Shown here in pieces: positions 4,462 to 29,547 of a stretch of DNA of 34,053 nucleotides (position 1 is the stretch's first letter; each line of letters opens with the position of its first letter). The notes under the pieces are model-generated. The model was not told the DNA's origin, ran no database searches, and worked only from the letters and a program-made list of their open reading frames with translations. Source of the stretch: Pseudomonadota bacterium (lineage in GTDB: Bacteria; Desulfobacterota; Desulfobacteria; Desulfobacterales; Desulfolunaceae); the NCBI GenBank assembly GCA_018818835.1, contig JAHIRD010000149.1, positions 1 to 34,053 of the forward strand. Reading direction: 5' to 3'. The position numbers and the translations under genes are program-made.

Positions 4462-7400
4462 TTACCACACTTGAATCATTCCACCCCAGGAGGTCAGCTG
4501 ACCTTCATCACAACAGCCGTCCGTGCCTGTACAGGTCGGATTCCGAAATTCCAATTCATTGACACCCACAGTTGTTGCCAAAGGAAGTTCAAATCCCGGA
4601 TCCCCGGGTGTTAATGTCAGCAACCTGATAAAGTCACCATTCAAGTAAAGTTCAACGCTGACTGCGGTGCACCAGCGTGGTCCAGGTGTGAATTTCATGG
4701 TTGTGGTAGTATTGGCCGCAGAGAATTCCAATGAATAATCCATCGTGGGTGCAGACTGTTCAAACCAGGTTGCCTCCACCGAGGTATCCCGTGTCTTGAG
4801 GCATACAGAGCCTCCCCAGGAGTCAAGGGTTCCATCCAGGCAGCTCCCAGAACCCGTTGTACAATTGGGGTTTTTAAGCTCAACGATATTTTCACCCACA
4901 ATGATAAGATTGTCGGGTAGGACAATATCGCTGCTTGTTTCACCCGGTCCCACCGAATCGATTTTTGCGATATAGGTCCCGTTCAGGTACAACTGGTATG
5001 AGACATCGGTACTGGCATCAGGGCCGGAACTGTACTCGAAGGACATCTGGCTCTGGGTGGCTGCAAGATACGCCTTTGCATCCAGATCCGGATCATACCT
5101 CGTAAATGTTGAACAATAATGGGGCCGGGCAAAAATGCCGCTGATATCATAGATTTTCAATCCGGGCTGACTGGCCGTGTAGAGATAATTACCCCGTACG
5201 GCAGCTTCCTGGACATAATGATCCACCTGAAGGGTAAACATGTCCGGATTGATGGGATCACGTGTGTCGACAATGGTTGCCATGGCGTCACCGGTATTAC
5301 TTAGTCGTGAAACAGTGTAGCAGTTGGTGTTTCCTGCTTCGGCGAATGTTGTGGTGGTGGGTAGAAAATCAGCGATTCGAGATCCCAGGATTTGGGGATT
5401 CTGGGGATCAGAGATATCCAGAGTCGTCAGAGTAAGGTTCCCGTCCAATCTGGGATTGCCGTTATCCATGATAAATCCACCGGTACATCCCACGGCAAGG
5501 GCCCTTGCCCCGTTGACTTCCACACTTGTAAGCACCCGGGATCCCGGTATGGCCAAGGTACTTAAAACGGATAGATTGGCCGGATCTGAAATATCGACAA
5601 TGTCAATGCGGCCTGTTCCGCTTGTGGCCGCTGTCTCACCGGTGGTGCTTGGAATGAGAGCGATTCCGCTTCCGACGTTACATCCTTGCCCGACCAGATA
5701 GTTGCTTCCTGGCCATTCAGGGTTTAAGGTTTGGGGGGTATTATATAGGGCGTCCAATTGTATCGGTGCCGAAGGTGTTGTCAGGCTAAATGGAACCACA
5801 TCCCCTCGTATAAGGGCAATCGTATTGGTACTTGCGTAATGCCCAAGGATATTGGTATTGAGAAACAGATGGTCTCCCTGGACAAACCCGCCGCTCAGCC
5901 AATTGTAACCCGTATTTTCCTCTCCAACCAGTTGGGGCAGTTCGGGGTTGCTCAATCCATAGATGTCCAGGGTGGTCCACCCGGATCCAACGACAAGGTG
6001 ATCCCCCACCATGCGACACCGGATATAGATATAGGTTGATTCACCAAAAGTGGCTGCGGCTGATGGGTTTACCGGATCCTGGATATCCACAACCGTCAGA
6101 TGCTCCGGGCCGCCCATATACGCATAATCTCCGTATAAGGCTAAGGTTTCTACACCGCCTGTTGTTTCTGCCTCACCCAGCAGGATAAAGGACGTGGCCG
6201 ACATGGCCACGGTGACGACACCATAATCGGTTTTTCCGTTGTTGGTGACGGTCATGGACGCGCTTCCGCTGGCAAGGGCTGTAATCAAACCGTCCCCTGA
6301 AACCGTGGCTATGGAGGGATTGGACGAGTGATACAAGGTTCCAGTCATGGCGGTGGTGAGGTCTCGCTGGCTGCCATCGGCAAAATGGCCGGTCACAGAG
6401 AGCTGAATCGTCTCTCCGATTTGGTTCAAGGATAGATCCGCCGGACCCATGGTTATGGAGTCCAGAAGCGTTGGGGGAAGGTCAAATGACTCCACCGGGT
6501 CGCCATCGTCCGGGCCATTGGTTTGTGCGGAGTGTCCCATGCCCCGGGCTGCAAATATCTCCCAGATCACTCCAATATCGGCACCGCCGTAGTTTTCCCG
6601 GTCCGAAAGGAGTATAAAATCACGATTGTCAAGAAATGTGGGCTCGGCAGGCGATAGTTTCATGGCATCCACAACCAGCTGCTCAACTCTGTGTTTACCC
6701 TCAGCCTCCCCATACCGGTTAATAAACGCCTGACGTAAATCCCAAAGCGTGGCAGACCAGATCTCACCATCGGTATACCTGTTGGTCGCGCCGGTATATC
6801 CAATATCACCATAGCTAAGGTCATTATCATCCATGGTATGGCGCCTAATTCCAACGGTGGGGTTACCGGTGACATATTCACCCGTAATCGGGCTGTTAAA
6901 CATATTGGCCGCAAACCAGTCTGACCAGGCCTCGGCCATGGCAGCGGCCTGGATCGAATTGAGGGCCTCACCGCTATATTTATGAGGACCTCCGCAAAGA
7001 CGGTTTGAAAGACCGTGGGTGTATTCGTGAATCATGATATCCCCGGAAAGGGCTGAATCGCTAAATCGAAAGGGAGGGTCCGTAAACATCCTCAAGGCCA
7101 TGTGACTTCCATCCTGGCCCTCCGGATATGTCATGAAATGAGCATTGTTTCTATAGGTGGTGTCATCCCAACCGTACTGCACATAGACATGCACCGGATC
7201 CTGGCCTTCCCCTCCGCGGTTAAAATTATCGGTCTGGAAATTTCCAGCGGCTTCGTCAAAACCCAGGTTATAAAAGTGGTCGTGCATGAGGTTGGACCAG
7301 TAAAATGCATTGACGATATCCACATTCAAATCTGTCTGAACATCAACGCCACGACTTGTTTCATAAGCATTTTGGAATATATAAGAGAAATTGGATTGAA

Positions 7401-8478
7401 CATTGTTGTAAAATATTGATCTGGGGAAGGCACGCACAAGGGTCTCCCGTGATCCACCGGCCCAGACATTGTTACCAAATGTGGAAAATTTTCCTATGAA
7501 TCCTTCAGGGAAAATACCTATGTTTGTGAGAAAATCTTCCGTGATCCATCCCTCCGGGGATGCCTGGGGATCGCCATTGAAAGACACCCAGACCTGATTG
7601 CCTGCATCGGGATTTTCTTCAAAGACCAGGCCGCCTGTCTCACTGCTTGTATAGGCCTGAACAGCATTGGACTGGTAAAGGACGGCTCCTGTTTGGGCAT
7701 CCACCAACACGATTAAAACCTGGTCTGCGGCTTTTTGGAATATGACTTTCCAGGAGAGCTTGAAGGTATTTTCCATGGGCATAATGACCAGAGATGCCCG
7801 GTGTATATCAAAATAGGGCCCCGGATCAAAGGTGCATTGCTTTTCCGGTCCATCCGGTCCGGTCAAAAGCGTGGGTTGATAACCTGTATTCAAGGGATCA
7901 AAATTTCTTGCAGCGATAGATAGGGCCTCAGTCCCGGATAGGGCAGGGGTGACAGGAATATTTATACCGGGATAATAGTCACCGGTAATCGTGATGATTT
8001 TACCCTGTTTGTTGATCCCCGATTGAATCCTGGCACCCCATACAGGGATATCCTGGAAATATTGCTCAATCAACAGATGACGGACCTGGTTGTGTTGACT
8101 CGTATAATTGCTTTTTATGCTGAAATTGGCCAGTTCGGAAGAAGGGAGTTTGAAGAGATCCTCATGGGTGGCAAGGAAATTAAAAAAAACATCCTCGGTT
8201 GAAAGGGTGCTTTCGCCTGTCAAATAACCGGATGAATTGTATAATAGTGATGGGAGTCCGTTTTTTTGATTCCAGCGGACCCTGGCACTCCCACCAGTCT
8301 GGATGTTTAATGCATCATAGGCGGCCTGGGTTGAAGCGGAAATAAGAGAGCCGCCTGGAGTTGATCCGCCACCTCCGCTGCTGCCACATGCGGTGAAAAG
8401 TGTCAGGGAAATAAGGGTGATGAGAATCCAATAGAGGGATCTCATCCTGTCAGTGCCAAGCCTTGTCGTGATTGACAT
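4462..8478 (-). CDS. Secreted lipoprotein metallopeptidase, fungalysin (M36) type, with Ig-like, LVIVD propeller and duplicated C-terminal module
   Basis: The 1338-residue protein starts with a lipoprotein signal (hydrophobic 15-28, LFTAC with C31), so it is probably anchored in the outer membrane or exposed at the surface. Residues ~50-280 look like a fungalysin/thermolysin-type propeptide. The catalytic domain carries HEYTHG (484-489; zinc ligands H484, H488) and the third-ligand motif EAWSD (E516), as in M36 peptidases, preceded by NAFYWSNLMHDHFY. Residues ~670-760 form a Big_2-like Ig domain and ~765-1120 contain LVIVD-type propeller repeats (LTVVDIQDPVNP, IDIVDISDPANL, LTTLDISDPQNP). The end has two copies of a cysteine-rich module (NPNC...DSWGG at ~1203-1223 and NPTC...TSWGG at ~1313-1333). 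ATG 8478 is preceded by GAGGAGA at good spacing. It is monocistronic, with a terminator at 4159-4186. The substrate is unknown. Confidence 0.9.
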   Translation of the reverse strand: MSITTRLGTDRMRSLYWILITLISLTLFTACGSSGGGGSTPGGSLISASTQAAYDALNIQTGGSARVRWNQKNGLPSLLYNSSGYLTGESTLSTEDVFFNFLATHEDLFKLPSSELANFSIKSNYTSQHNQVRHLLIEQYFQDIPVWGARIQSGINKQGKIITITGDYYPGINIPVTPALSGTEALSIAARNFDPLNTGYQPTLLTGPDGPEKQCTFDPGPYFDIHRASLVIMPMENTFKLSWKVIFQKAADQVLIVLVDAQTGAVLYQSNAVQAYTSSETGGLVFEENPDAGNQVWVSFNGDPQASPEGWITEDFLTNIGIFPEGFIGKFSTFGNNVWAGGSRETLVRAFPRSIFYNNVQSNFSYIFQNAYETSRGVDVQTDLNVDIVNAFYWSNLMHDHFYNLGFDEAAGNFQTDNFNRGGEGQDPVHVYVQYGWDDTTYRNNAHFMTYPEGQDGSHMALRMFTDPPFRFSDSALSGDIMIHEYTHGLSNRLCGGPHKYSGEALNSIQAAAMAEAWSDWFAANMFNSPITGEYVTGNPTVGIRRHTMDDNDLSYGDIGYTGATNRYTDGEIWSATLWDLRQAFINRYGEAEGKHRVEQLVVDAMKLSPAEPTFLDNRDFILLSDRENYGGADIGVIWEIFAARGMGHSAQTNGPDDGDPVESFDLPPTLLDSITMGPADLSLNQIGETIQLSVTGHFADGSQRDLTTAMTGTLYHSSNPSIATVSGDGLITALASGSASMTVTNNGKTDYGVVTVAMSATSFILLGEAETTGGVETLALYGDYAYMGGPEHLTVVDIQDPVNPSAAATFGESTYIYIRCRMVGDHLVVGSGWTTLDIYGLSNPELPQLVGEENTGYNWLSGGFVQGDHLFLNTNILGHYASTNTIALIRGDVVPFSLTTPSAPIQLDALYNTPQTLNPEWPGSNYLVGQGCNVGSGIALIPSTTGETAATSGTGRIDIVDISDPANLSVLSTLAIPGSRVLTSVEVNGARALAVGCTGGFIMDNGNPRLDGNLTLTTLDISDPQNPQILGSRIADFLPTTTTFAEAGNTNCYTVSRLSNTGDAMATIVDTRDPINPDMFTLQVDHYVQEAAVRGNYLYTASQPGLKIYDISGIFARPHYCSTFTRYDPDLDAKAYLAATQSQMSFEYSSGPDASTDVSYQLYLNGTYIAKIDSVGPGETSSDIVLPDNLIIVGENIVELKNPNCTTGSGSCLDGTLDSWGGSVCLKTRDTSVEATWFEQSAPTMDYSLEFSAANTTTTMKFTPGPRWCTAVSVELYLNGDFIRLLTLTPGDPGFELPLATTVGVNELEFRNPTCTGTDGCCDEGQLTSWGGMIQVW

Positions 8479-8845: not shown

Positions 8846-10747
8846 CTAAATGCCATACAGGTAATGGCAGATTCTGCACCCTTTCGGAGCATCGGGCATG
8901 GCATTGATGGCTGACTGGTTGGCTGCTTTGAGTTTCTGCAAGGAAGGTTCGGATAAATCCACCTGCATGAATCCATCGTCATAGGCACTGACCCGTTGTT
9001 CAAACCGCGTTTTATACAAGGTACACGATTCGGTATTCCAGAGCTGTTCCAGGTTTTGATCCGGCAGACGCCCATAATGGATCGAGGGCATGGTGACATC
9101 CTTGCCTAAAAAGGTCGTGGGGCCGCCAATGGCAAGATTGATACACGGGGAAACCTGACCGTTATAACGGATAAATAAGGAATTCCTGGGATCTTGGGCG
9201 CAAACCGGCAATTCTTCTGGTGTGAAAGAAAATGCAGTTGTGTTTACACCCAATTTTTTCCCAAGTTTTTGTGCACGCTCAAGTGCTTTTTCCAGATGGC
9301 GTATCTCTTTTGTTTTTTTGGGTGAAAACAAACCATAGCCTTTCCCGTGAACGCCTCGGATGACATCACATTGCTTGAAATTCACCTGGGCCACCCCCAG
9401 GTCTGCCGCACGTTTTATCATGTCTTCCAGTTGGTGCTGGTTCAAGGACATGATCACGAAATTAATCATGGTTTTTATGCTTTTTGCCAGGGGCGAACCG
9501 CAAAAATAAGAGACATTCTTACAGACTGTGTCAAAATTTGATCCAAGACGTATGGAATCATAGATTTTTTTGTTTGAACCATCCATGGAAAAGCAAATCC
9601 AGTCAAGGCCCACGGAAAGAAAGTGATCTGCTTTTTCCTTGTTTAATAAAAGGCCGTTGGTCAGAAACCCTGTTTCGCACCCTTCTTTTCGTGCATCGCT
9701 GATCCATTGGGCAAGATGGGGTTGCATAAGGGGCTCGCCCCCTCCTGAAAAATCAATGGATTGAATCATAGGCAGATGGGGCTTTATGGCGTTCCAGATC
9801 GATGGTTTTAAGTTCCCCTGATTTTCAACATGAATTCTCTCATCGATCCATGGGCACATGATGCATTTCAGGTTGCAGGCAAGGGAGCTTTCAATCTGAA
9901 CCAAGCGCCAGGGTCGTTTTTTTGCTTCAAACATAAGGCTGGCAGGCCCCAATGCTTTTTTCTTGAGCTCATCGAATCGTTTATCGACAAGGCCGGGCAA
10001 GATGAGACTCACCGCAGCCATCCATTTCGCTTTGGTCTCAAACCAGACCTCTCCCGATGGGCCTGCTGCTGCATCCAGTATTTTTAGCGTTGTTTCATGG
10101 ATGGTGGCTCCGCGCGAATCCAGCGGACAGACTCCGGGTATTTTCTTTTCACGAAGGGCATGCTTTTCAAAATCCGTTGCAACGGTTCCAGGGTATATCG
10201 TGATGATATGGATATTTTGGGTGGATAATTCCAGCCGCATGGTGTTGGCCATAATGGCAAAGGCGGATTTACTGCCCCCGTAAACCCCTTCGGTTGGAAT
10301 GGGAATTCGACCGGTACAAGACACCAGATTGATGATTCTTCCCTGGCCTCGTTTTTTCATATGTGGGACAAGTGCTGTCATTAATTGCAGTGGGGCAAAC
10401 GTGTTCAACTCAAACAGGTGACGAAGATTTTGATTGCTGACATCTTCCATCAAGGAAAAATAACCCACCCCGGCGATATTAAACAGGGCATCGATGTAAC
10501 CGAGATGCTCCAGTGCTTTTGTTGCAAGCACGTCTGCTTGACCTGGTATTGAAAGATCTGCCGGAATGATGGCGATGTGATTGGGGCCAGGTAATGAGCT
10601 GAGAAGATGTTTTAGGCCGACGTCCGACCGGGCACTCAGGACCATGTGAGCTCCTTTTTCAGCGAGCATTCCAGCCAAAGCCGAACCCAAGCCCCCTGTG
10701 GCGCCTGTTATAAGTATATGTTTGCCTGCGAACGTGTAATGTCCCAT
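8846..10747 (-). CDS. Fused SDR oxidoreductase and radical SAM/SPASM enzyme
   Basis: One 633-residue polypeptide joins two normally separate enzymes. Residues ~5-270 form a classical short-chain dehydrogenase/reductase: nucleotide motif TGATGGLG (14-21), NIAG in place of NNAG, catalytic S143, and YGGSK with Y156 and K160. Residues ~275-633 form a radical SAM enzyme with the [4Fe-4S] motif CNLKCIMC (C291, C295, C298) and a GGGEP SAM-contact motif (335-339). Its SPASM-like tail has cysteines at 516, 535, 624 and 627, the last two as CRIC. The ATG at 10747 is chosen because AAGGA lies 8 bases upstream and the SDR fold starts at once; upstream in-frame ATGs lack a site. It follows the acyl-CoA synthetase gene on the same strand after 115 bases. 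The fusion suggests redox and radical steps on one carrier-bound or CoA-linked substrate. That is inference; the product is unknown. Confidence 0.88.
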   Translation of the reverse strand: MGHYTFAGKHILITGATGGLGSALAGMLAEKGAHMVLSARSDVGLKHLLSSLPGPNHIAIIPADLSIPGQADVLATKALEHLGYIDALFNIAGVGYFSLMEDVSNQNLRHLFELNTFAPLQLMTALVPHMKKRGQGRIINLVSCTGRIPIPTEGVYGGSKSAFAIMANTMRLELSTQNIHIITIYPGTVATDFEKHALREKKIPGVCPLDSRGATIHETTLKILDAAAGPSGEVWFETKAKWMAAVSLILPGLVDKRFDELKKKALGPASLMFEAKKRPWRLVQIESSLACNLKCIMCPWIDERIHVENQGNLKPSIWNAIKPHLPMIQSIDFSGGGEPLMQPHLAQWISDARKEGCETGFLTNGLLLNKEKADHFLSVGLDWICFSMDGSNKKIYDSIRLGSNFDTVCKNVSYFCGSPLAKSIKTMINFVIMSLNQHQLEDMIKRAADLGVAQVNFKQCDVIRGVHGKGYGLFSPKKTKEIRHLEKALERAQKLGKKLGVNTTAFSFTPEELPVCAQDPRNSLFIRYNGQVSPCINLAIGGPTTFLGKDVTMPSIHYGRLPDQNLEQLWNTESCTLYKTRFEQRVSAYDDGFMQVDLSEPSLQKLKAANQSAINAMPDAPKGCRICHYLYGI

Positions 10748-10862
10748 GTCAGCCATCCTTTTCGAAATAAAAGTAGCTATTTGGCAACCTTCATAAAAGA
10801 GCCTGCCCCAGCGAAGTGAAGGGTTGGCCCCCGGCAGGGTTGCCCAAGACATGCGAACCTAT

Positions 10863-13028
10863 TCAATCCAAAACAGCCTGTTTGTTCGGTGCAACAATGA
10901 TGCGTGCATCCACAATGCTCAGGCCTTGCTCATGGACAATCACGGGATTAAGATCCATCTCACGAATCTGGGGATAGGCTTCGATGATTTCGGACACCAG
11001 CAAAAGAAGTCGGTGGATTGCTTTTTTGTCGCCAGGGGGCTTGCCACGCATTCCGTTTAGAAGGGGCGATTTGATTTCATTGACCATTTTCTTTGCTGAA
11101 AAATAAGAAATGGGCAGGACCCTGAAGACCACATCCTTCAATAGCTCGACAAAGATTCCTCCCATGCCGAACATGAGGACCGGACCGAACTGATCGTCGA
11201 TCTTGGTGCCGATGATGACTTCAACACCGTCCTTGGCCATGGGTGCGATTATCACGCCACGGATGTCCGCATGGGGGTTGTGCTTATTAACGTTTTCCAT
11301 GATTTCCCCATAGGCACGTCGGATATCTTCTTCTCCGTTTAAATTGAGCCGGACACCCCCGATATCGCTTTTATGCATGATGTCTGGCGAGGCGATCTTC
11401 ATGACCAGGGGGCCGGATAGTGTCCGTGATACGTTGACGGCGTCATCAACTGAACTGGCCAGCATGTCTGTTGTAATAGGAATGGCATGGGCCTTGGCAT
11501 GCATATTGATGATCCGTTTGACCTCATGTTCGAGGAGCAACGTGCGGCCTTCCTTTCCGGCCTGGTCGATGATCTTCCGGGCTTCGGGTTTGGATTTGGC
11601 TCCCCAGTTAAAAACAAAATTGGTTTTGATCTTGTGGGATTGAAGGTGCCCGCCGTATTCCGCAAGAACCCCGACACATTTGGTGGCCACTTCCAGGGAA
11701 TCGTATACCGGGATATTGTAATACCGGAGAAGATGGTGGGAATGGGGACGGGCCGAGGCGAAAAGGCTGTGGACAATGATGGGTTTATTCCGTTTTTTAA
11801 TCAGCTTGCCCATGCGGTGGGCCGCATCCTCTTCTTTGAGGGATAGGCTTTCTTCGAACCGGATGCCATACCCGCCGAAAAGACCCACAATAAGAAGGCC
11901 TCCCACGGCAGGATCCTTGAGAATGATGTCCACGCAGTCGGCAAAGATGGTGGGATCGGAATCGGTTCCTCCGGCAACATCCACGGGATTGCCAACGGCA
12001 GCCGCCGCCGGAAGGATTGACTTGAGTCTGGCCTGGACCTTGCCATCCAGCTCGGGGATGGTCAAACCCAGATCGGTTAAAAGATCCGCAGCAATGGTGG
12101 CATGGCCCCCGCCATCAGCCAGAATGGCCACAGAGTTGTTCTTGATAGGCGGCAAACTGGACAAGGTTTCTGCAGCAGGGAAAAGTTTGTCCGAATCTTC
12201 GATCACCACAATTCCGGCCCGGCCAAAGGCGGTTCGTGATACTTCGGAAATACCGGCCAGGGCACCGGTATGAGAGCCCGCAGCTTTTCTTCCGGTGTCG
12301 GTTCGCCCGCTTTTCAGCAGAATAATGGGCTTGCTCAGGGTTGTTAAATGAGCCTGCTGCAAAAATTTCCGGCCATCCCGCATGCCTTCCACATACATGA
12401 GAATGGCCTTTGTTTCAGGGTCATTTTTAAAAAATTCCAGGTATTCATGGAATTTGACATCCGCCTCATTACCCACACCGATATAGTAGGAAAACCCTTT
12501 CAGGCTTTTGACCTTGGCTTCGGTGATCAGGGCCAGCGCCATGTTACCGCTTTGACTGATCAATGCAATGTCGCCCTTGGGCGCATTGCGCAGACCTACA
12601 AGGTTAAGGTTATTTTTCAGGTTGATCATGCCCGATGTGTTTGGCCCGATAAAACGGACACCCGATTGCAGGGCCGCTTCCTTGAGTGCGTCTTCCAAAC
12701 GTTGCCCGTCCTGGCCGGTTTCGCGGAAGCCCCCTGCTATGATGACCGCCCCTTTGACGCCCTTGGCTCCACAGGCAGCCAGAAGCCCGGGAATGGTGCG
12801 TGCGGGCGTGACGATAAGGACCGTATCCACCGGCCCCGGGACATCGGCGATATCCTGATAGCATTTTAAACCTAAGATGCTGCTTTCTTTGGGATTGACC
12901 GGATAGATGACCCCTTCGAATTTTTCATCCAACAGGGTTTTGATTGCCTGAAACCCCCGTTTGGTTTTATCCTTGGACGCCCCGATAATGGCGACGGATT
13001 CGGCATTCAAAAGTTTTTCAAGGGACAT
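10863..13028 (-). CDS. ADP-forming acyl-CoA synthetase (acetate-CoA ligase family, fused alpha-beta type)
   Basis: Enzymes of this family interconvert acyl-CoA, ADP and phosphate with free acid, CoA and ATP, through a phosphohistidine. The 721-residue protein carries, in order, a CoA-binding Rossmann domain (VAIIGASKDKTKRGF at ~12-26), two flavodoxin-like ligase domains with the phosphohistidine loop GSHTGALAG (H253), and a C-terminal ATP-grasp domain (~500-721; LVMKIASPDIMHKSDIGGV and EMDLNPV). The alpha-then-beta fused order is the common bacterial form. I chose ATG 13028 (SLEKLLNAES follows) because AAGGA lies 5 bases upstream. The SDR-radical SAM gene follows on the same strand, and a BTAD-type regulator is divergent. 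The acyl substrate cannot be read; the neighbour suggests a specialised rather than general acid. Confidence 0.92.
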   Translation of the reverse strand: MSLEKLLNAESVAIIGASKDKTKRGFQAIKTLLDEKFEGVIYPVNPKESSILGLKCYQDIADVPGPVDTVLIVTPARTIPGLLAACGAKGVKGAVIIAGGFRETGQDGQRLEDALKEAALQSGVRFIGPNTSGMINLKNNLNLVGLRNAPKGDIALISQSGNMALALITEAKVKSLKGFSYYIGVGNEADVKFHEYLEFFKNDPETKAILMYVEGMRDGRKFLQQAHLTTLSKPIILLKSGRTDTGRKAAGSHTGALAGISEVSRTAFGRAGIVVIEDSDKLFPAAETLSSLPPIKNNSVAILADGGGHATIAADLLTDLGLTIPELDGKVQARLKSILPAAAAVGNPVDVAGGTDSDPTIFADCVDIILKDPAVGGLLIVGLFGGYGIRFEESLSLKEEDAAHRMGKLIKKRNKPIIVHSLFASARPHSHHLLRYYNIPVYDSLEVATKCVGVLAEYGGHLQSHKIKTNFVFNWGAKSKPEARKIIDQAGKEGRTLLLEHEVKRIINMHAKAHAIPITTDMLASSVDDAVNVSRTLSGPLVMKIASPDIMHKSDIGGVRLNLNGEEDIRRAYGEIMENVNKHNPHADIRGVIIAPMAKDGVEVIIGTKIDDQFGPVLMFGMGGIFVELLKDVVFRVLPISYFSAKKMVNEIKSPLLNGMRGKPPGDKKAIHRLLLLVSEIIEAYPQIREMDLNPVIVHEQGLSIVDARIIVAPNKQAVLD

Positions 13029-13038
13029 GGTCATCCTT

Positions 13039-13194
13039 TCACGTTGAACTGATTTTTTATAGAGGCGCCATATGGGAGGCCGCGGGCATGGGCAAAACAA
13101 TTTGTCAGACTATGGGATTCTGTAACCCAATCCCTGATAAAAATCAATGATGGGATGATTTTCTAAAACGGATATATGAACAATCACGTTGAAC
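13039..13194. promoter_or_regulatory. Pair of identical 11-mers TCACGTTGAAC in the divergent intergenic region
   Basis: TCACGTTGAAC occurs exactly at 13039-13049, just upstream of the ribosome-binding site of the acyl-CoA synthetase gene, and again at 13184-13194, where it includes the -35 box of the candidate regulator promoter. Two identical 11-mers within 156 bases of a divergent promoter region fit binding sites for the adjacent regulator. That role is inferred from position only. Confidence 0.35.
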
Positions 13195-16587: not shown

Positions 16588-19500
16588 ATGCTGCTTTTCG
16601 AAACACAATTAAGACAAAATAGATCAAAAAAGCTCAAGCAGATAGCGCTCAGCATCATGATTATCGTGTTTGGGCTGTTTTTATGTTTTGCGGGAAATGC
16701 TTTCGGAGCCGATGAGCCGGAAGGAAATATTGATTTTCCTGATTCCAACCTTAAGACCGCTCTGATTGACTTGGGCGCGGACGCTGATAATGACACCTTC
16801 ATCACCGAAGATGAAATGGCCCTGTTGGGTGAAAACGGGTTTGGTGAACTGATTCTTTACAGCAATAACATTTCCAATCTGACAGGACTTGAGTACGCTG
16901 TAAATTTCACTAAAATCTATCTGGACAACAATCTGATCAGCGATCTTGGCCCCTTATCCCCTATGACATGGATAACGAGCCTCCACCTGAGCGATAATCA
17001 AATTGAAAATATCGAACCGCTTTCCACGTTGACGAATCTGACCTACCTGGACCTCGGGCAGAATCGTGTTACGGATCTGACGCCTTTATCCTCCCTGAAC
17101 CAACTTCAAACGTTATATATCAGAAATGTCGATGTGGTCGCTCTGGACAACCTTACACCCTTAAGCGCCTTGACCAGCCTCACCAGCCTGTGGATCACAG
17201 GGACCACCCTCTCGGACATCAGCCCTCTTGAGGGCCTTGTTAATCTGGATAATGTCGATTTTCAAAGCAATCAAATCAGCGATATCAGCGCCTTGCACAC
17301 CTTGCCCAAACTCAATATGATCTCCCTGGATACCAATCCGATCAGTGATATCAGCCCCCTGGCCGGTTTGAATGAGTTACAGACCCTTTGGCTTCGTTAT
17401 ACCAAAAACGTGGAAGACATATCGGCTTTAAGCGGATTGCCGATGTTGGATAACGTCTATCTGGACGACAATCTGATCTCCGATCTCAGTCCATTGTCGG
17501 GAAGCACATCCATTCGTTTCTTGTCAGTAAGGGATAACCGGATAACCGATCTCAGCCCTTTGCAGACCTGTACGGGACTCAGGTATCTTTGGATTGACAG
17601 CAATCCGGTTGAAAGCCTGGAATCCCTGCCCCAATGTCCATCCCTGTATTCCCTTTCTGCAAGCACCATTAAAGCAAGGGATTTCAGTCCCCTGGGCTCC
17701 ATGACAGGGTTGGGTGAGTTGGTTCTTTCATTCAATCTCATTGAGGACATGGGGTTTGTGTCCACGATGACAGGACTCACCCGGCTTACGCTGGGCTACA
17801 ATCACATCTCCGATGTACCCTCTTTGACAAATCTGACGCATCTGAATTCCTTATTTCTCAATAACAATAGGCTGGCCATCCTGCCTGAAAATGCTTTCAG
17901 CACGTTGACAGAACTGAGTACCCTTCATATCGCAGACAACGGCATTGATTTAAGAACCCAGGTATTGCATCTTCCGCCTTCCCTTTCAAACGGGGGTTTT
18001 TATTACAACAATCAATATCTCATTTCATTCACTGAGCCCAATGACCCGATTTCTCTTGACGTTGGAGAAACCGTCAGCCGAAGTATTGAAGCTGATGCAA
18101 CACGAATCACGGCCAGCGGCAGAGATGGCGTCACCGGGGAATTTACCGGCGTCACCAGCACCGATTATGTGAATATTGCTGGCAAATGCAATGTAACCAT
18201 GGTGGCGGGCGATGAATTCGCGACGGTCATTAAAAACGGGGATCAGGCTGACGTGACAGGGCTTGCCCTGGGCACAGGGAAAATGGCCCTTGAATGGCTT
18301 GATTATGCCATAGGGTTATACCAGCCCCTGGTCATACGGGTAACAACCGTCAATGTGGATGATCCCTCCATCCAATTACCCGTGCTGAGCTTCAGCGAAG
18401 CTTCGGCTACAGTGAATGAAGGGGATTCCCATGTGGTTTATGTTGAAAGAAATCTGTCCCTCGGAGCCATCACCTGTCAGGTGGATGTGACAGGCGGTAC
18501 GCTCTCTGCGGATGAATATACACGTTCCGTGACCTTTCCCGTGACCCTTTCCTTTGCAAACGGTGAAACCCGAAAACCCATCACCCTGTCCCCCCTGGCC
18601 GATGGAAAAACGGAAGGACTGGAATTCCTGACGCTGGGCATTGTCAGAGCTGGCTTTGAGCCACTGGACCCCGTCCCTACATTTATACTTGATGTCGCCG
18701 ATACCAGCATACGCTTAAATGATGCCCGGGTGGTTTCCATGGATTTTCCCGCCACCATGCTGGCCTATCAGGATAATATCGCAACCATCACTCTTGAAAA
18801 CAACGGCAACACCATCTGGGACCATCAGGCATCCCCCTTTAACCTGGGCAATCCGTCCATGCCCGGTGATATCTATGAGCTGAAGATTGGTGTGGAGGGA
18901 ACCTCTCCCGGAGACGGGCCGGATGATCTTGAACCGGGATTCGCCTTTGTCAGAACCAGTACAAAAGAGATCGTAGAACCTGGGGAACAGGTCACCTACA
19001 CGTTTCATATCACCCCAAAATTCACTGGAAACCAAACCCTGAAATTCAAAATGCTGGGGCTGGACATCAACATTGATCAGTCTCCTTTCCTTCACTACTT
19101 CGGAGAAACGGCCACCCTGAATTTTACCGTCAGGCAACCGATTGACGATGCCCAGATCATCAGTCTGGATTGCCCACACCTGTTGCTGACCGAACAAAGC
19201 ACACAGGTGACGGCTGTGGTGAAAAACACCGGCGAAACCACCTGGATTCCCCGCTCCGTTGAAAATGGCAGCGAATGGGATTGGCCGGGCAATACCCTGG
19301 TCTGGTATCTGGATGGGGATTCAAGCCACCCGAGCTGCCCGCCCATGGTCCCCGGCGCTTTGTTTGACTGGACCCTGGGGTCTTCCCATGCGTCCGTGAC
19401 TCCGGGCGAAACCGTAACCTATACCTTTACCTTCACACCCCGAAGAGCTGCGGTGGGAGAGCATGTCGTCCATTTCAGAATGCTCGGGCTCAGCCCCACA

Positions 19501-21096
19501 AATCAATACAACTATTTCGGGGACACACACGCGCCGGATGTGGAAATTAAAAATCCCTGGAATGATGCCCGGGTGGTTTCCATGGATTTTCCCACCACCA
19601 TGCTGGCCTATCAGGACAATATTGCCACCATCACCCTGGAAAACAACGGCACCACCACCTGGGACCATCAGGCTTCCCCCTTTAACCTGGGAGATCCTAC
19701 CATGCCCGGTGATATTTATGAGCTTAAAATCGGTGTGGAGGGAACCTCTCCCGGAGACGGGCCGGATGATCTTGAGCCGGGATTCGCCTTTGTCAGAACC
19801 AGTACAAAATCGGTCGTAACACCGGGGGAACAGGTGACATACACGTTTCACATCACCCCAAAATTCAATGGCAACCAATCCCTGAAATTCAGAATGCTGG
19901 GGATGGACACCAACATCGACAATTCTCCCTTCCTCGAATATTTCGGAGAAACGGCAACCCTGAATTTTACCGTCAGGCAACCGGTTGACGATGCCCAGAT
20001 CATCAGCCTGAATTGCCCGCCCCTGATGTTGACCGAACGAAGCACACAAGTGACGGCTGTGGTGAAAAACACCGGCGAAACCACCTGGATTCCCCGTGCC
20101 GTTGAAAATGGAAGCGAATGGGATTGGCCGGGTAATACACTGGTCTGGTATCTGGATGGGGATTCAAGCCATCCGAGCTGTCCGCCCATGGTCCCCGGCG
20201 CTTTGTTTGACTGGACCCTGGGGTCTTCCCATGCGTCCGTGGCTCCGGGCGAAACCGTAACCTATACCTATACCTTCACACCCCGAAGAGCTTCGGAGGG
20301 TGAGCATGTCCTCCATTTCAGAATGCTTGGACTCAGCCCCACAGATCAATACAGCTATTTCGGGGACGCCTCCTCCAAAACCGTGATCATGCGTTTAAGC
20401 AACAGTGTTGGAATTCCAACGACAGTCACCCTGGGCGGCATCGAGATCACCCTTTCAGGGGATTCCATTCATGCCCCCGAAGGAACTGATCTGGCAAGCC
20501 TTTTGACCCAAGGCACATTGTCCGTTCCCGTTTTAGATGATGATGGTGTCACCCAGATCGGCATCATGGGAATTGAGTTGGAATCTGTTTCAGGAAATGA
20601 AGCTAACCTTGCTTCTGCCGTGCTCAAACTTGACATGAACCGTCAGATGGAGGGACAGGATATCAATGTATTGATCGAAGTCCAGCTTTTCCAAATACCC
20701 CAATCAGGAATGTTTGAGATCACACTGGATCCGGTTGAAAGTGCAGACGGGGATGGAATCAACAGCCTTTTAGACAAGGATGGCAACGCAATGGAGGGAT
20801 TGCCTCTGGTCATTATAAATGTTGTAAAACATAACGTTGATGAACAGGATATTGGTCCAGCCCGGGTGGAAATCCGTATGCCAAAACCACCTGGATTTAC
20901 GTCACGGCAGAGTTTCCTTATGGTGAAAGAAGATGGCCAGGCCATGGTAATTCTGCCCACGGAGTTTGTGGAAGAGGGGCCTTTGGTGATTTTCCGGGGC
21001 TCATCTCCGGGTGGATTCTCCCGATTCATCCTGGTCCAGCTTGAAGATGATAAATCGGACGATGGCGGCTCCTGCTTTATCTCTTCCATGCATTGA
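16588..21096 (+). CDS. Exported LRR, Calx-beta and NBR1-like Ig multi-domain surface protein
   Basis: The 1502-residue protein begins with a signal peptide (hydrophobic 17-38, cleavage near AFG-A at ~40). A canonical EF-hand-type loop, DADNDTFITEDE, spans residues 65-76. About fourteen ~22-residue leucine-rich repeats follow (to ~470; for example SDLGPLSPMTWITSLHLSDN), of the internalin/SDS22 kind. A Calx-beta-like domain covers ~595-705. Two tandem 281-residue units (711-991 and 992-1272) each hold two NBR1-like Ig domains with the NNGNTIW and NTGETTW signatures. The C terminus (~1273-1502) ends GGSCFISSMH, resembling the Cys-Phe-Ile tails seen on delta-proteobacterial exported proteins but lacking a following membrane anchor. 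AAGG lies about 7 bases before ATG 16588. It follows the BTAD gene by 129 bases. The likely role is adhesion or surface interaction. Confidence 0.85.
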   Translation: MLLFETQLRQNRSKKLKQIALSIMIIVFGLFLCFAGNAFGADEPEGNIDFPDSNLKTALIDLGADADNDTFITEDEMALLGENGFGELILYSNNISNLTGLEYAVNFTKIYLDNNLISDLGPLSPMTWITSLHLSDNQIENIEPLSTLTNLTYLDLGQNRVTDLTPLSSLNQLQTLYIRNVDVVALDNLTPLSALTSLTSLWITGTTLSDISPLEGLVNLDNVDFQSNQISDISALHTLPKLNMISLDTNPISDISPLAGLNELQTLWLRYTKNVEDISALSGLPMLDNVYLDDNLISDLSPLSGSTSIRFLSVRDNRITDLSPLQTCTGLRYLWIDSNPVESLESLPQCPSLYSLSASTIKARDFSPLGSMTGLGELVLSFNLIEDMGFVSTMTGLTRLTLGYNHISDVPSLTNLTHLNSLFLNNNRLAILPENAFSTLTELSTLHIADNGIDLRTQVLHLPPSLSNGGFYYNNQYLISFTEPNDPISLDVGETVSRSIEADATRITASGRDGVTGEFTGVTSTDYVNIAGKCNVTMVAGDEFATVIKNGDQADVTGLALGTGKMALEWLDYAIGLYQPLVIRVTTVNVDDPSIQLPVLSFSEASATVNEGDSHVVYVERNLSLGAITCQVDVTGGTLSADEYTRSVTFPVTLSFANGETRKPITLSPLADGKTEGLEFLTLGIVRAGFEPLDPVPTFILDVADTSIRLNDARVVSMDFPATMLAYQDNIATITLENNGNTIWDHQASPFNLGNPSMPGDIYELKIGVEGTSPGDGPDDLEPGFAFVRTSTKEIVEPGEQVTYTFHITPKFTGNQTLKFKMLGLDINIDQSPFLHYFGETATLNFTVRQPIDDAQIISLDCPHLLLTEQSTQVTAVVKNTGETTWIPRSVENGSEWDWPGNTLVWYLDGDSSHPSCPPMVPGALFDWTLGSSHASVTPGETVTYTFTFTPRRAAVGEHVVHFRMLGLSPTNQYNYFGDTHAPDVEIKNPWNDARVVSMDFPTTMLAYQDNIATITLENNGTTTWDHQASPFNLGDPTMPGDIYELKIGVEGTSPGDGPDDLEPGFAFVRTSTKSVVTPGEQVTYTFHITPKFNGNQSLKFRMLGMDTNIDNSPFLEYFGETATLNFTVRQPVDDAQIISLNCPPLMLTERSTQVTAVVKNTGETTWIPRAVENGSEWDWPGNTLVWYLDGDSSHPSCPPMVPGALFDWTLGSSHASVAPGETVTYTYTFTPRRASEGEHVLHFRMLGLSPTDQYSYFGDASSKTVIMRLSNSVGIPTTVTLGGIEITLSGDSIHAPEGTDLASLLTQGTLSVPVLDDDGVTQIGIMGIELESVSGNEANLASAVLKLDMNRQMEGQDINVLIEVQLFQIPQSGMFEITLDPVESADGDGINSLLDKDGNAMEGLPLVIINVVKHNVDEQDIGPARVEIRMPKPPGFTSRQSFLMVKEDGQAMVILPTEFVEEGPLVIFRGSSPGGFSRFILVQLEDDKSDDGGSCFISSMH
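18718..20403 (+). repeat. 843-bp internal tandem duplication in the LRR/Ig gene
   Basis: The sequence at 18718-19560 is repeated in frame at 19561-20403. Both copies open with AATGATGCCCGGGTGGTTTC, offset by 843 bases (281 codons). Long runs are identical or differ mainly at third positions, for example the segment around GGAACCTCTCCCGGAGACGG. This points to a fairly recent duplication of a pair of NBR1-like Ig domains. Such repeats can expand or contract by recombination. Confidence 0.92.
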
Positions 21097-24680: not shown

Positions 24681-25601
24681 TTAAGGCCGGTCCTTGATGT
24701 ATCGGCTGAACAAAACCGATGAGCAGATGGTCAGAAATTTGGATCGATCCGTGTCGCTTCGGGACGAGATGATCAGGGGGACCTGGGCTCCGGGGACCAC
24801 ATTGGCCACAGCGCCCCCAATGGTGGCAATCCAGCTTTTGTAAAGGACATTCCCGCTGACGATGTCCGGGGCAATGAGGATATCTGCCTGGCCGGCCACG
24901 GGATCATGGGTCATTCCTTTTTTCTCTGCAAATTGGGGGTAAAGGGCAATGTCGTAGGACAATGGACCTGAGACTACAGCGTTTTTCCAGTGCATACGGG
25001 ACAGGGCCTGTGCATGGAGAGAGGAGGGTACCGATGGTGAGGGCACCTCATTGGCTCCGAGAATGGCCACCCTTGGCGTGGGTATGCCGATGCTCCAGGC
25101 CACATCCATGGCATTTTGGATGATATCCATGCCGCTCTCGGGTGTGCCTATGGGGAAAAGATGGGGATTGATTCCAGGGTCGGTCAGAATCACCAGCCGG
25201 TCCATACCCGGTATTTCAAAAATGCAGACCAGGGAAAGACGCCGGCCAGCCGGAAGACCGGTTTTTCTGTCCAGAATGGATTTCAGAAAAACCGCTGTGT
25301 TGAGTTCCCCTTTCATGATCATTTGGGCCTGGTTGGATTTGACCAGGGAAATCCCTGTGGCGCATGCTGATTCAGGGGAGTCAACCTCAAGAATGTCATA
25401 CTGATTCCGGAATGGACCGGTCAGGTTGGACAGGGAATGAATCCGTGTCTTGTCACCCACAAGAAAAGCCTGGCTGACAATGCCCTGGGCCATGGCCTCG
25501 TTTACGGCGGAAAGCGCCTTGTTGTCCGGGCAGATCAATGCCATGGGGGCTCCGCCGGTTTTCCGGGCAGCATCCACCAGTGCATCCATATTTGTCCCCA
25601 T
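24681..25601 (-). CDS. ptb: Phosphate butyryltransferase (phosphate acetyl/butyryltransferase family)
   Basis: This enzyme converts butyryl-CoA (or related acyl-CoA) plus phosphate to the acyl phosphate and CoA. The 306-residue length and the motifs GPLSYDIAL (~212-220), LIAPDIVSGNVLYK (~242-255) and GAQVPLIISSRSDT (~271-284) are those of the family. ATG 25601 (GTNMDALVDA follows) is chosen because AAGGAG stands at good spacing, while an in-frame ATG 12 codons upstream has none. The butyrate kinase gene precedes it on the same strand, so the pair would make ATP from an acyl-CoA. The 287 bases between them hold a dispersed repeat. The butyryl assignment rests mainly on the adjacent kinase; branched or other short acyl groups are possible. 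Confidence 0.88.
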   Translation of the reverse strand: MGTNMDALVDAARKTGGAPMALICPDNKALSAVNEAMAQGIVSQAFLVGDKTRIHSLSNLTGPFRNQYDILEVDSPESACATGISLVKSNQAQMIMKGELNTAVFLKSILDRKTGLPAGRRLSLVCIFEIPGMDRLVILTDPGINPHLFPIGTPESGMDIIQNAMDVAWSIGIPTPRVAILGANEVPSPSVPSSLHAQALSRMHWKNAVVSGPLSYDIALYPQFAEKKGMTHDPVAGQADILIAPDIVSGNVLYKSWIATIGGAVANVVPGAQVPLIISSRSDTDRSKFLTICSSVLFSRYIKDRP

Positions 25602-25670
25602 GGTCGTACTCCTTTTATACATCAAATAATACATCAAAAGACTGATATAGTGTTAATGCAGTATATTTTT

Positions 25671-25812
25671 AACCACCCGTTCCCGTTGGTCGCTGAAGAA
25701 CATGAAGGGCACGGAGAATTGCAAAAAAGGCCTCCGGCGGCCCTGCCGGGAGCCAAACTTTTGAAAAGTTTGACAAACAGGTGTTATTCTCTTCATGTCA
25801 TTCGCGGTAGAC
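25671..25812. repeat. Dispersed foldback repeat, copy 2, between buk and ptb
   Basis: Bases 25671-25718 match 4059-4106 with about 3 differences in 48. In this copy the two arms are separated by a GC-rich segment containing CCTCCGGCGG, CTGCCGGGAG and a perfect hairpin CAAACTTTT/AAAAGTTTG (25752-25770). It ends near CTTCATGTCATTCGCGG (25793-25809). It occupies half of the space inside the buk-ptb pair and could terminate or stabilise the transcript there. Confidence 0.6.
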
Positions 25813-25888
25813 TTACGATGAAACATCAACTCCAGGAATCCATTTGCCCAGCATTTTTAAAAGTTGGCCGTCGGCATTGTTTTTGTCA

Positions 25889-26968
25889 TCAATCACAGCC
25901 CTCTGTCCAGGGATAGGTCCGTGGGACCTCCTTTTTTTCCATCACACGCCGGGCGGAATGGATAAGGGCTTCCAGTTCATGTTCTCCGGGCTCAATATAA
26001 ACAGGGGCAATGAATCTGATTTTTTCAATGATGCGCGCTGTGATGTCACTGCTGTGAGCCATGCCTCCGGTGATGACAATGGCGTCCACCTCACCGTTCA
26101 ATGCAGCGGCAAGCCCTCCGATTTCTTTGGCGATTTGGTAAATCATTCCGGTCAGAACCAATTGTGCCTTTTCATCACCGTTCTTAAGGCGGACAATCAG
26201 TTCCCGGATATCGGTTATCCCTAAATAAGAAAAGATTCCGCCTTTTCCGGCGGCGGTTTTTTCCAGGGTGTCCGGGGTCAGGGATCCTGACCGGATCAGG
26301 GATGCAATGCCGCTTACGGGCAGTCCGCCGGTTCGTTCGGGAGAATAGGGGCCATCCCCGCTCAACGCATCATTGACATCCACCACCCGGCCCCGTAAGT
26401 GGGCACCCACACTGATGCCTCCGCCCAGATGGGCAACGATCAGGTTGAGATCCCCATAGGAACGGCCCAGTTTTTCTGCTGTTTTCCGGGCCATGGCCTT
26501 TTGGTTGAGGGCATGAAAGATGCTTTTGCGTTCAAGGCCGGATAAGCCGGACAGTTTTGCTTCAGGGCTCATTTCATCCACGACCACCGGATCGGCGATA
26601 AAGGCAGGGCAGTGGAACCGTTCGGCAAAGTCATAGGCAAGAAGGCCTCCCAGATTGGATGCATGCTGTCCATTGACCCCCATGGTAAGGTCTGTGATCA
26701 TGCTCGGATTAACCGCGTAAACCCCACCGGGGACAGGGCGTATCAGGCCCCCCCGGCCGATGACGGAACAAAAGGGGAGATTGGAAAAACCCTGGGTGTC
26801 AAGCCAGTTATCAATAAAGCTGTACCGCATGGGTTTCTGATCAAAAATACATGAAAACGTGTCGAGAACATGCCTGGGATGGTCCATGATTCCTTTGATT
26901 AACTTATCGTTCCAGTAAACGGCAACTTTTGTGCTGGTGGAACCCGGATCTATCGCCATATAGGCCAT
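25889..26968 (-). CDS. buk: Butyrate kinase (acetate/butyrate kinase family)
   Basis: Butyrate kinase transfers phosphate between acyl phosphate and ADP. The 359-residue protein begins with the ASKHA phosphate-1 motif AIDPGSTSTKVAVY (5-18). The family signature AHLGGGISVGAHLRGRVVDV lies at ~184-203, followed by DGPYSPERTGGLP and the adenosine motif ITGGMAHS. The size and GPYSPERTGGLP block favour butyrate over acetate kinase (about 400 residues). AAGGA lies 8 bases before ATG 26968. It is the first gene of the buk-ptb-cysteine-cluster series and is divergent from the acyltransferase-hydrolase gene. No clear - strand promoter was identified. Confidence 0.94.
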   Translation of the reverse strand: MAYMAIDPGSTSTKVAVYWNDKLIKGIMDHPRHVLDTFSCIFDQKPMRYSFIDNWLDTQGFSNLPFCSVIGRGGLIRPVPGGVYAVNPSMITDLTMGVNGQHASNLGGLLAYDFAERFHCPAFIADPVVVDEMSPEAKLSGLSGLERKSIFHALNQKAMARKTAEKLGRSYGDLNLIVAHLGGGISVGAHLRGRVVDVNDALSGDGPYSPERTGGLPVSGIASLIRSGSLTPDTLEKTAAGKGGIFSYLGITDIRELIVRLKNGDEKAQLVLTGMIYQIAKEIGGLAAALNGEVDAIVITGGMAHSSDITARIIEKIRFIAPVYIEPGEHELEALIHSARRVMEKKEVPRTYPWTEGCD

Positions 26969-27384: not shown

Positions 27385-29547
27385 ATGAACAAAGTTGCGT
27401 TTCTGACCACAGAATATGCGATCAAGAAGATTTACGATTTGTCGAAAACACGGGTGAATCTTCACAATACGGAGCATATTCCGGACGGGTCCATTATTTT
27501 TGTTGTAAATCATTTCACGCGCATAGAAACGATTTTCCTTCCGGTCAATATTCAGAAGATCACCGGTGTTCCGGTCTGGTCCCTGGCTGATTCGGGTCTG
27601 TTCAAAGGGTTTGTTGGCGAATTCATCAGCCAGGCAGGCGCCGTCTCCACCCATGACCCGGACAGGGATAAACTTATGGTTCGAAGCCTGTTAACCGGGG
27701 AAGCCAACTGGATCATCTTTCCCGAAGGGCTGATGGTGAAAAACAAGAAGCTCATGCATAACGGTGAATTCATGGTGGGGACGGAAACCGGTGCCAAAAA
27801 ACCCCACACAGGGGCGGGCACCCTGGCCCTGAGGACCGAATTTTACCGTGAACGATTGCGATATGTATCACAACATGACCCGGATGAGTTGAAAAAACTC
27901 CTGGAACTTTTCGGGATTGACTCCCTGGATAACATCTTGAATCGAAGTACCTATATTGTTCCGGTCAATATTACTTACTACCCCATACGGTCCAGGGAAA
28001 ACATCCTCAGTCGCCTGGCCGGGAGCCTGATGGAAAACCCGTCGGAGCGTATGATTGAAGAGATCATGACCGAAGGGACCATGATCCTCTCCGGCGTGGA
28101 TGTGGATGTTCGTTTTGACGAGGCCATCAAGATCAGACCCTATATGCAGAATCCGGTTATCCAGTGGGACATCAATTCAAAAACCCCCATCCGGTTCGAT
28201 GACCCCATCGCGTCCAGGGATATGCTCAGGAACCTTGCACGGAACATCATGCATGGCTATATGACGTCCATATACACCATGACCACGGTGAATCATGATC
28301 ATCTCTTCGCATCCATACTGTATCGCATGCCCCAAGAGAGGATTGACATTGATGATCTGAAACGGCGGGTTTATCTGGCAGCCACCCTGGATCTGTGTGA
28401 TGAGAAGTGTTTTAAACATAAAAGCATGCTGGAAAGCCAGGTTCATCTTTTAACCGATGACCGGTATCAGAAATTTGATAATTTTATGGCCTTTGCCAAA
28501 GACAAAGGGCTTTTGACCATCGAGGAGGACCGGTACCTTGTCAAGAATACCGAGGCGTTTCAAGAGGAAACAAATTTTCACACAACCCGGGGCGATAATC
28601 CTCTGATTGTGATGGCCAATGAAGTGGAGCCCCTGACTGTTCTTCAGTACAACATCCAGCTTTTATCCCAGGAATCGCCTGAACGAATCAAAGAGATGGT
28701 TTATGAACAGCTTTATCAAAAAACCATCAGGGATTTTGAAAAGGACTATTCGGAATTTTATATTGACAAAGAATCCAAACCCAAAGAAATCGGGCGACCC
28801 TATCTCCTGGAAGGTGAAGAAAACAGCACAGGTATTGTCCTGATTCATGGCTATATGGCCGCCCCCCAGGAAGTCCGGGGACTTGCCGATTATCTGAACC
28901 GTCTGGGGTACAGTGTGTTTGCTCCCCGCCTGAAGGGACATGGGACTTCACCGGATGACCTGTGTGAACGTTCGTATATGGAATGGATTGAGTCAGTGGA
29001 AGAAGGCGCCGTGATGATGGTCTGCCGTTATGAATCGGTCGTGGCCGGAGGGTTTTCCACCGGGGCAGGTCTGGCACTGGATATCAGCAGCCGCTTAAAG
29101 GGACTCAAGGGCGTCTTTGCCGTATCCCCCCCCATGAAACTCAAGGATTATTCAGCCAAATTTATACCGGCCGTGAGCGTGTGGAATATGTTGATGGATA
29201 AGTTTCATATTGAGTCAGCCAAAAAAGAGTTCATTGAAAATCATCCTGAAAATCCCCACATCAACTACACACGGAATCCCATTGCAGGCGTCCGTGAGCT
29301 TGAACGCCTGATGAAGGATCTGGAAGACAGGCTGGCCGGCATCACCATTCCCGCCTTTGTGCTTCAATCAGGCATTGACCCGGTGGTCAATGTGAAGGGC
29401 ACCCGGATGATTTACGAACTTCTGGGGTCCCAAAAAAAAGAATATCACCTGTTTCATATCAATCGCCATGGGATTCTCCTGGGTGAAGGGGCTGAACGGG
29501 TCTATAAGACCATCGGAGAGTTTTTGAAAACCCTTAACATGATTTGA
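27385..29547 (+). CDS. Acyltransferase (PlsC/GPAT-like) fused to an alpha/beta hydrolase
   Basis: The 720-residue protein has an N-terminal glycerolipid acyltransferase-like domain: motif I NHFTRIE (H43, E48; the usual HX4D aspartate is replaced by Glu) and motif III FPEG (112-115). A middle region of ~300-470 resembles the helical part of larger acyltransferases but has no clear motif. Residues ~480-720 form an alpha/beta hydrolase with oxyanion HG (H488), nucleophile elbow GFSTG (S558), acid SGID (D665) and catalytic RHG (H695), like monoacylglycerol lipases. There is no signal peptide, so it is probably cytoplasmic or membrane-peripheral. The two activities together suggest lipid remodelling or acyl transfer between lipids (inferred). 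GGAGG lies 4 bases before ATG 27385. It is divergent from buk. Its stop lies inside a repeat that carries a vapC remnant. Confidence 0.85.
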   Translation: MNKVAFLTTEYAIKKIYDLSKTRVNLHNTEHIPDGSIIFVVNHFTRIETIFLPVNIQKITGVPVWSLADSGLFKGFVGEFISQAGAVSTHDPDRDKLMVRSLLTGEANWIIFPEGLMVKNKKLMHNGEFMVGTETGAKKPHTGAGTLALRTEFYRERLRYVSQHDPDELKKLLELFGIDSLDNILNRSTYIVPVNITYYPIRSRENILSRLAGSLMENPSERMIEEIMTEGTMILSGVDVDVRFDEAIKIRPYMQNPVIQWDINSKTPIRFDDPIASRDMLRNLARNIMHGYMTSIYTMTTVNHDHLFASILYRMPQERIDIDDLKRRVYLAATLDLCDEKCFKHKSMLESQVHLLTDDRYQKFDNFMAFAKDKGLLTIEEDRYLVKNTEAFQEETNFHTTRGDNPLIVMANEVEPLTVLQYNIQLLSQESPERIKEMVYEQLYQKTIRDFEKDYSEFYIDKESKPKEIGRPYLLEGEENSTGIVLIHGYMAAPQEVRGLADYLNRLGYSVFAPRLKGHGTSPDDLCERSYMEWIESVEEGAVMMVCRYESVVAGGFSTGAGLALDISSRLKGLKGVFAVSPPMKLKDYSAKFIPAVSVWNMLMDKFHIESAKKEFIENHPENPHINYTRNPIAGVRELERLMKDLEDRLAGITIPAFVLQSGIDPVVNVKGTRMIYELLGSQKKEYHLFHINRHGILLGEGAERVYKTIGEFLKTLNMI

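Follow-up and report, generated by a model that had tools for sequence, protein, structure and literature searches.

The window, meaning the whole 34,053-nucleotide stretch of DNA that was analysed, carries on its minus strand (the initial annotation of the gene had given no strand) a single open frame that joins an SDR to a radical SAM enzyme. The gene, its parts and its upstream neighbour are as follows.

8846..10747, minus strand: SDR–radical SAM fusion gene, a single open frame of 633 aa with its stop codon within the coordinates, identified by Pfam domains and full-length fused homologues
9962..10747, minus strand: SDR half, residues ~1–262, with TGATGGLG at 14–21, R40, N115, S143, Y156 and K160
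9923..9961, minus strand: linker, residues ~263–275
8849..9922, minus strand: radical SAM half, residues 276–633, with C291, C295 and C298 and, in its C-terminal auxiliary domain, the four cysteines C516, C535, C624 and C627
10748..10852, minus strand: in-frame 5' extension of 35 codons from an earlier ATG at 10852, which would yield 668 aa and is probably untranslated
10863..13100, minus strand: NDP-forming acyl-CoA synthetase gene, upstream and co-directional (Pfam ATP-grasp_5, Succ_CoA_lig and CoA_binding_2)

No stop codon interrupts the minus strand between 10747 and 8846. The start at 10747 was preferred over that at 10852 because the N-terminus it gives agrees with those of the other fused proteins (M1 is nearly invariant among 13 aligned SDR halves) and because AAGGA lies upstream of it; residues of the protein (P0001) are numbered from this ATG. 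Elsewhere in the window, the minus strand encodes a 1338-aa M36 (fungalysin) metallopeptidase with a propeptide motif, Big_2 and an LVIVD repeat (4462–8478), and has a phosphate acetyl/butyryl transferase gene next to one for an acetokinase-family kinase (24681–26968). The plus strand encodes a 1502-aa protein with several leucine-rich repeat stretches (16588–21096) and a 720-aa chain with acyltransferase and alpha/beta hydrolase domains (27385–29547).

Searches with P0001 found matches in 15 of 146 relatives at E≤1e-60 (window genome counted) and, at E≤1e-50, in 23 of 389 genomes of the class, 24 of 389 of the order (almost the same set of genomes) and 9 of 42 from another class of the same phylum. 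With just the radical half as query, at E≤1e-45, matches came from 5 of 395 genomes drawn across the phylum. The window genome itself (G000; 6.75 Mb in 334 contigs) has a single full-length copy, its 15 other matches being ordinary SDRs or radical SAM proteins at 25–33% identity, and seven other listed genomes of the same family had no match to P0001 at E≤1e-60. On contig C78 of the window genome, a 623-aa protein (L003, 1249–3120) appears by eye to join two different SDR-type domains. The resulting fused set comprises 14 genes: that of the window, those of G093, G034, G009, G046, G132, G389, G352, G324, G261, G785 and G783, one further gene (L009) from a contig scan that reached close relatives only, and that of G129. 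Eleven of the 13 genes beyond the window are full length with their catalytic motifs, one (L009) lacks CxxxCxxC and one (G129) is truncated where its contig ends. A further eighteen homologues have no SDR, among them one fused to another protein (G693) and one whose 3' end is cut by the contig (G186), and three more distant rows served as outgroups. No viral copy appeared in one pattern scan, whose reach was close relatives only.

The initial annotation had described one chain without stop or frameshift, had allowed that homologues might always have the halves as separate genes, and had proposed a search for proteins with both domains. That search returned a fusion family spanning two classes, and the open frame together with the 13 further fused genes bears out the single chain. 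The merging of two genes through a sequencing or assembly error, for which no supporting evidence was found, was rejected as extremely improbable because fused genes occur in other genomes, across several families and two classes.

The three Pfam domains proposed for the protein all score above cut-off in one frame. In the N-terminal half, adh_short (PF00106) reaches 145.9 bits against a cut-off of 26.6 over residues 9–197, and the protein has the TGxxxGxG motif and catalytic N-S-Y-K residues of classical SDRs. The SDR motifs first noted in the window protein (TGATGGLG, S143/Y156/K160) are conserved across 13 aligned SDR halves: N115, S143, Y156 and K160 are invariant, as are T14, G15, A16, G18 and G21 of the glycine-rich motif, in which G19 is replaced by D in L041. 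An arginine after strand 2 of an SDR is a mark of NADP(H) preference, and the invariance of R40 at this position suggests that the SDR half is probably NADP(H)-dependent. PRK06181 gives the best NCBIfam score for this half, 145.8, below its cut-off of 215.

The C-terminal half matches Radical_SAM (PF04055; 50.3 bits against 29.5, residues 288–446) and SPASM (PF13186; 27.5 bits against 21.5, residues 516–579). In an alignment of 22 radical halves that includes two 32%-identical outgroups and excludes L009, the CxxxCxxC cysteines (C291, C295 and C298) are invariant, as are C357 and, in the pattern C-x13-G-x4-C and CxxC, C516, C535, C624 and C627. A full SPASM pattern has seven cysteines for two clusters. 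Only these four are invariant in the C-terminal part of the half, the number found in a twitch-type domain with one auxiliary cluster. The invariant cysteines thus uphold the radical SAM assignment and the four auxiliary positions of the initial annotation; its 'SPASM' is a loose label, and the cysteine pattern fits a twitch-type domain better. In BtrN, as described in PMC9012708, the extra cluster has four cysteine ligands and the reaction is a two-electron oxidation. A profile of the radical half gave its best matches among solved structures with BlsE (1.8e-13) and BtrN (9.3e-11), both weak and partial. With P0001 itself, the best 60 of 533 matching solved sequences matched best in the SDR half only. 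None of the best 25 of 254 NCBIfam models matched by the window protein reached its cut-off; TIGR04311 (putative metalloenzyme maturase) scored 127.7 bits against 400 and TIGR04317 (tungsten cofactor oxidoreductase maturase) 122.1 against 380. AlphaFold2, run on two sequences (the window protein and L009), gave a mean pLDDT of 46.8, too low for the structure to be relied on. In L009 (1053–2882) an in-frame gap deletes CxxxCxxC and leaves the remaining frame intact, so that the SDR may act alone there unless the assembly is wrong.

Both halves of the fused proteins are conserved, the SDR at least as well as the radical half. Among 12 fused proteins (L009 left out), mean pairwise identity was 63.5% over residues 1–245 and 59.8% over residues 278–633; residues 246–277, which take in the linker whose conservation the initial annotation had proposed to check, were the least conserved of the compared stretches (43.6%). 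Across four close pairs of relatives, dN was 0.08–0.13 and dS 0.66–1.3 in the SDR half (dN/dS ~0.10–0.14), and dN 0.08–0.18 and dS 0.84–1.97 in the radical half (dN/dS ~0.08–0.09). In these close pairs, purifying selection thus acts on the SDR and the radical half alike; the pairs exclude the window gene, for which dS was saturated against both relatives tried. The pairwise distances of one half track those of the other (r = 0.88 over 13 proteins; none of 9999 permutations was as high). One ancient fusion would account for this, and so would plain vertical inheritance of any two genes. Stronger support for a maintained pairing comes from the searches for stand-alone members of this SDR clade, which found none. 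Across 194 genomes, all seven SDR-half matches at E≤1e-30 were fused genes (the window's own counted). When 18 SDR-less and two fused genomes were searched for the SDR, the fused genes scored above 300 bits, and 17 SDR-less genomes, four of them under 85% complete, gave at most 100 bits (35% identity) or nothing; no other SDR was found in G037 (65% complete). The remaining genome, G319, gave a 235-bit match to a decayed copy, L046. In the genomes searched, close relatives of the window SDR therefore occur only in the fusion or in a decayed copy of it.

Several of the SDR-less genes carry remnants of the missing half. G072 retains SDR residues 1–36 and G112 residues 1–24, both with TGASGG, and G264 retains GGGLGAALRKLL; each remnant is in frame with the SDR tail or linker, and G072 and G264 are single-contig assemblies. 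N-terminal similarity was compared with 500 shuffles for each of 17 SDR-less genes (G693 left out), uncorrected for 17 tests. No shuffle reached the observed value in G072, G112 or G264, 4 and 6 did so in G319 and G299 (~six SDR residues kept), 20, 37 and 48 in G060, G781 and G771, and at least 99 in the other nine. The SDR tail region was recognisable (0 of 500 shuffles) in G112, G319, G264, G771, G060, G037 and G781, although in such genes it may belong to the radical half instead. These in-frame scraps ahead of the radical half show that the SDR was excised more than once; at least three relatives, and probably five, keep N-terminal pieces of it. G112 and G319 belong to one genus and have differing junctions. 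The bases at the G112 junction, CAGCCCTG, recur, by eye, within the L046 tail, a pattern that recombination between short repeats might have left. L046 itself (1483–2220, G319) is a decayed fusion copy that lacks residues 1–81 and ends after residue 325, in a genome that also carries an SDR-less copy; assembly contamination (6%) is a possible alternative source.

Supply of the SDR in trans was also considered and rejected. No other SDR was listed beside the SDR-less family genes in the neighbourhoods compared, several of them short, and at genome scale no other SDR scored above 100 bits in 17 of the 18 SDR-less genomes. Since 18 homologues do without the SDR and 17 of their genomes gave no close SDR match elsewhere, the SDR step is dispensable in many lineages, and the two halves are not obligate partners. 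The outgroup G418, the only genome available in its class, has an SDR gene of its own (28% identity to the fused SDR) on the same strand as a distant radical-half relative and 50 bases upstream of it (L062, 7034–9021); this single case is possibly the unfused arrangement.

Fused and SDR-less genes are intermixed in a tree of 35 radical halves, in which 17 of 32 inner branches are weak. The fused label changes eight times, at least three of the changes being forced by well-supported branches, and within genus g386 one gene is fused (G783) and another is not (G782). A single clade of fused genes (AU p = 5.4e-6) and a single clade of SDR-less genes (AU p = 2.2e-4) were both rejected, the groups being defined by architecture and not by the tree. 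The SDR is absent from all three outgroup rows and from G186, which has a long branch, so a single early gain within the family followed by frequent losses is probable, an order that the tree alone does not fix. The window row sits on a long branch (0.72); nearest to it by path, with weak support, is the fused G783 of another class, and its most identical row is the SDR-less G060 (59%). Lateral transfer may have occurred.

Gene neighbourhoods were clustered for 35 genes of the family and its outgroups (34 besides the window, 3.5 to 34 kb). The most frequent neighbours were a protein designated C1 (14), NF038143 proteins (12), a YeiH-type transporter (11, two of them in outgroups) and a sodium/calcium exchanger (9), and Rnf-operon genes, assigned by reading of sequences, were also frequent; none of these lies beside the window gene. 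NF038143, on which no open-licence literature was found, occurred (E≤1e-10) in 12 of the 15 genomes that carry the family (one below the curated cut-off) and in 13 of 131 other relatives (Fisher p = 1.4e-8, a test that ignores the relatedness of the genomes). The window genome, without an NF038143 match at E≤1e-10, is one of three exceptions among the carriers, and it gave no match to C1 in a search with one query and no positive control. C1 scores below the Pfam cut-offs for LPG_synthase_C (16.0 against 27.5) and Acetyltransf_6 (16.6 against 22) and matches no solved structure at E≤1; 'GNAT-like' is only a guess. C1 is often the upstream neighbour of the radical-half gene, and in G763, taking the first TTG as the start codon makes the C1 and radical-half frames overlap. 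In G693 (L048, 436–2571) the radical half is fused to a C1 relative, 50% identical to the C1 of G072, and thus bears a second, different partner. A conserved link with the acyl-CoA synthetase, whose conservation the initial annotation had proposed to check, was rejected on this clustering: none of the 34 other neighbourhoods (some of ~4 kb) contains a counterpart, so the synthetase is no guide to the substrate. The conserved neighbours likewise point to no substrate.

Taken together, these data lead us to put at about an even chance that the protein is a bifunctional redox enzyme, in which a BtrN-like radical oxidase and a probably NADP(H)-linked SDR would serve one pathway, the SDR step being optional. 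The C-terminal half would carry one extra [4Fe-4S] cluster on the four cysteines, as expected for a BtrN-like radical SAM enzyme, and would most likely act on a small molecule, by a two-electron radical oxidation or another step initiated by H-atom abstraction. The SDR half would reduce or oxidise a carbonyl or carbinol on that same scaffold; it might, for instance, reduce a ketone formed by the radical half back to the alcohol. The fusion would pass the intermediate locally between the halves. Radical oxidation and hydride transfer on one scaffold are suggested by the four auxiliary cysteines shared with BtrN, by the best solved matches and by R40. This bifunctional reading is favoured by domains above cut-off, invariant catalytic residues, an SDR at least as conserved as its partner half and an SDR clade found, in the genomes searched, only fused or in a decayed fusion copy. 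Against it, the 18 SDR-less homologues indicate that the radical step runs without the SDR, L009 lacks CxxxCxxC, and BlsE, a decarboxylase, outranks BtrN. As the SDR is dispensable, and has been discarded several times, an optional tailoring step is more likely than a required one. The initial annotation's fused enzyme is thus real, occurs in two classes and is conserved in both halves; its 'two consecutive steps on one substrate' is a hypothesis, and the SDR step is dispensable in many lineages.

Alternatively, though we regard this as somewhat unlikely, the SDR may act on another substrate or serve only as an aid to folding or location, the joint protein being an accident in which each half is selected apart. 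Such an accident would accord with the excision of the SDR from several relatives that retain the radical half, with the lack of an SDR gene beside SDR-less genes in the stretches examined, and with the different partner in G693, but would leave unexplained why the SDR catalytic residues are invariant, why conservation of the SDR in the fused proteins matches that of the radical half, and why no close relative of it turned up on its own in the searched genomes. It is doubtful that the radical half modifies a peptide or metalloenzyme, as the names of TIGR04311 and TIGR04317 imply, with the SDR tailoring the modified residue: each of the 22 scanned radical halves hits both models at ≤1e-10, but P0001 lies far under both cut-offs, and no aldehyde oxidoreductase or short precursor peptide was recognised near the genes, without a dedicated search. 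A more specific and equally doubtful form of the bifunctional reading is a single-chain epimerase of a new kind, in which H-atom abstraction by the radical half would turn a carbinol into a ketone, which the NADP(H)-dependent SDR would then re-reduce from the other face; an SDR-less radical half would keep its role, the ketone being the product or passing to another partner, as in G693.

The protein would place hydride and radical chemistry on one chain, and relatives with the SDR, with scraps of it, with none, with a deleted radical site or with another partner form a natural domain-deletion set that could separate the product of each half. It combines two known superfamilies in an architecture of which, as had been supposed, no characterised enzyme or description was found in the open-licence literature on radical SAM–SDR fusions. 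The TIGR04317 and TIGR04311 maturases are the nearest NCBIfam models to the radical half, which reaches about a third of their cut-offs; the models span 349 and 423 positions and contain no SDR. BlsE (cytosylglucuronate decarboxylase, PDB 7vob), the top solved match at 1.8e-13, is a 360-aa chain with no SDR part, and its match ends at profile position 176, ahead of the auxiliary domain. BtrN (PDB 4m7s/4m7t), a radical SAM dehydrogenase with a twitch domain, is not known to carry an SDR; it shares the radical SAM core, its match spanning profile positions 1–130 only, and the four cysteines lead us to expect one auxiliary cluster in the radical half as well. With classical SDRs (PF00106; PRK06181) the SDR half has the cofactor motif and N-S-Y-K residues in common, whereas its clade differs in occurring, among the genomes searched, only when fused or as part of a decayed fusion copy.
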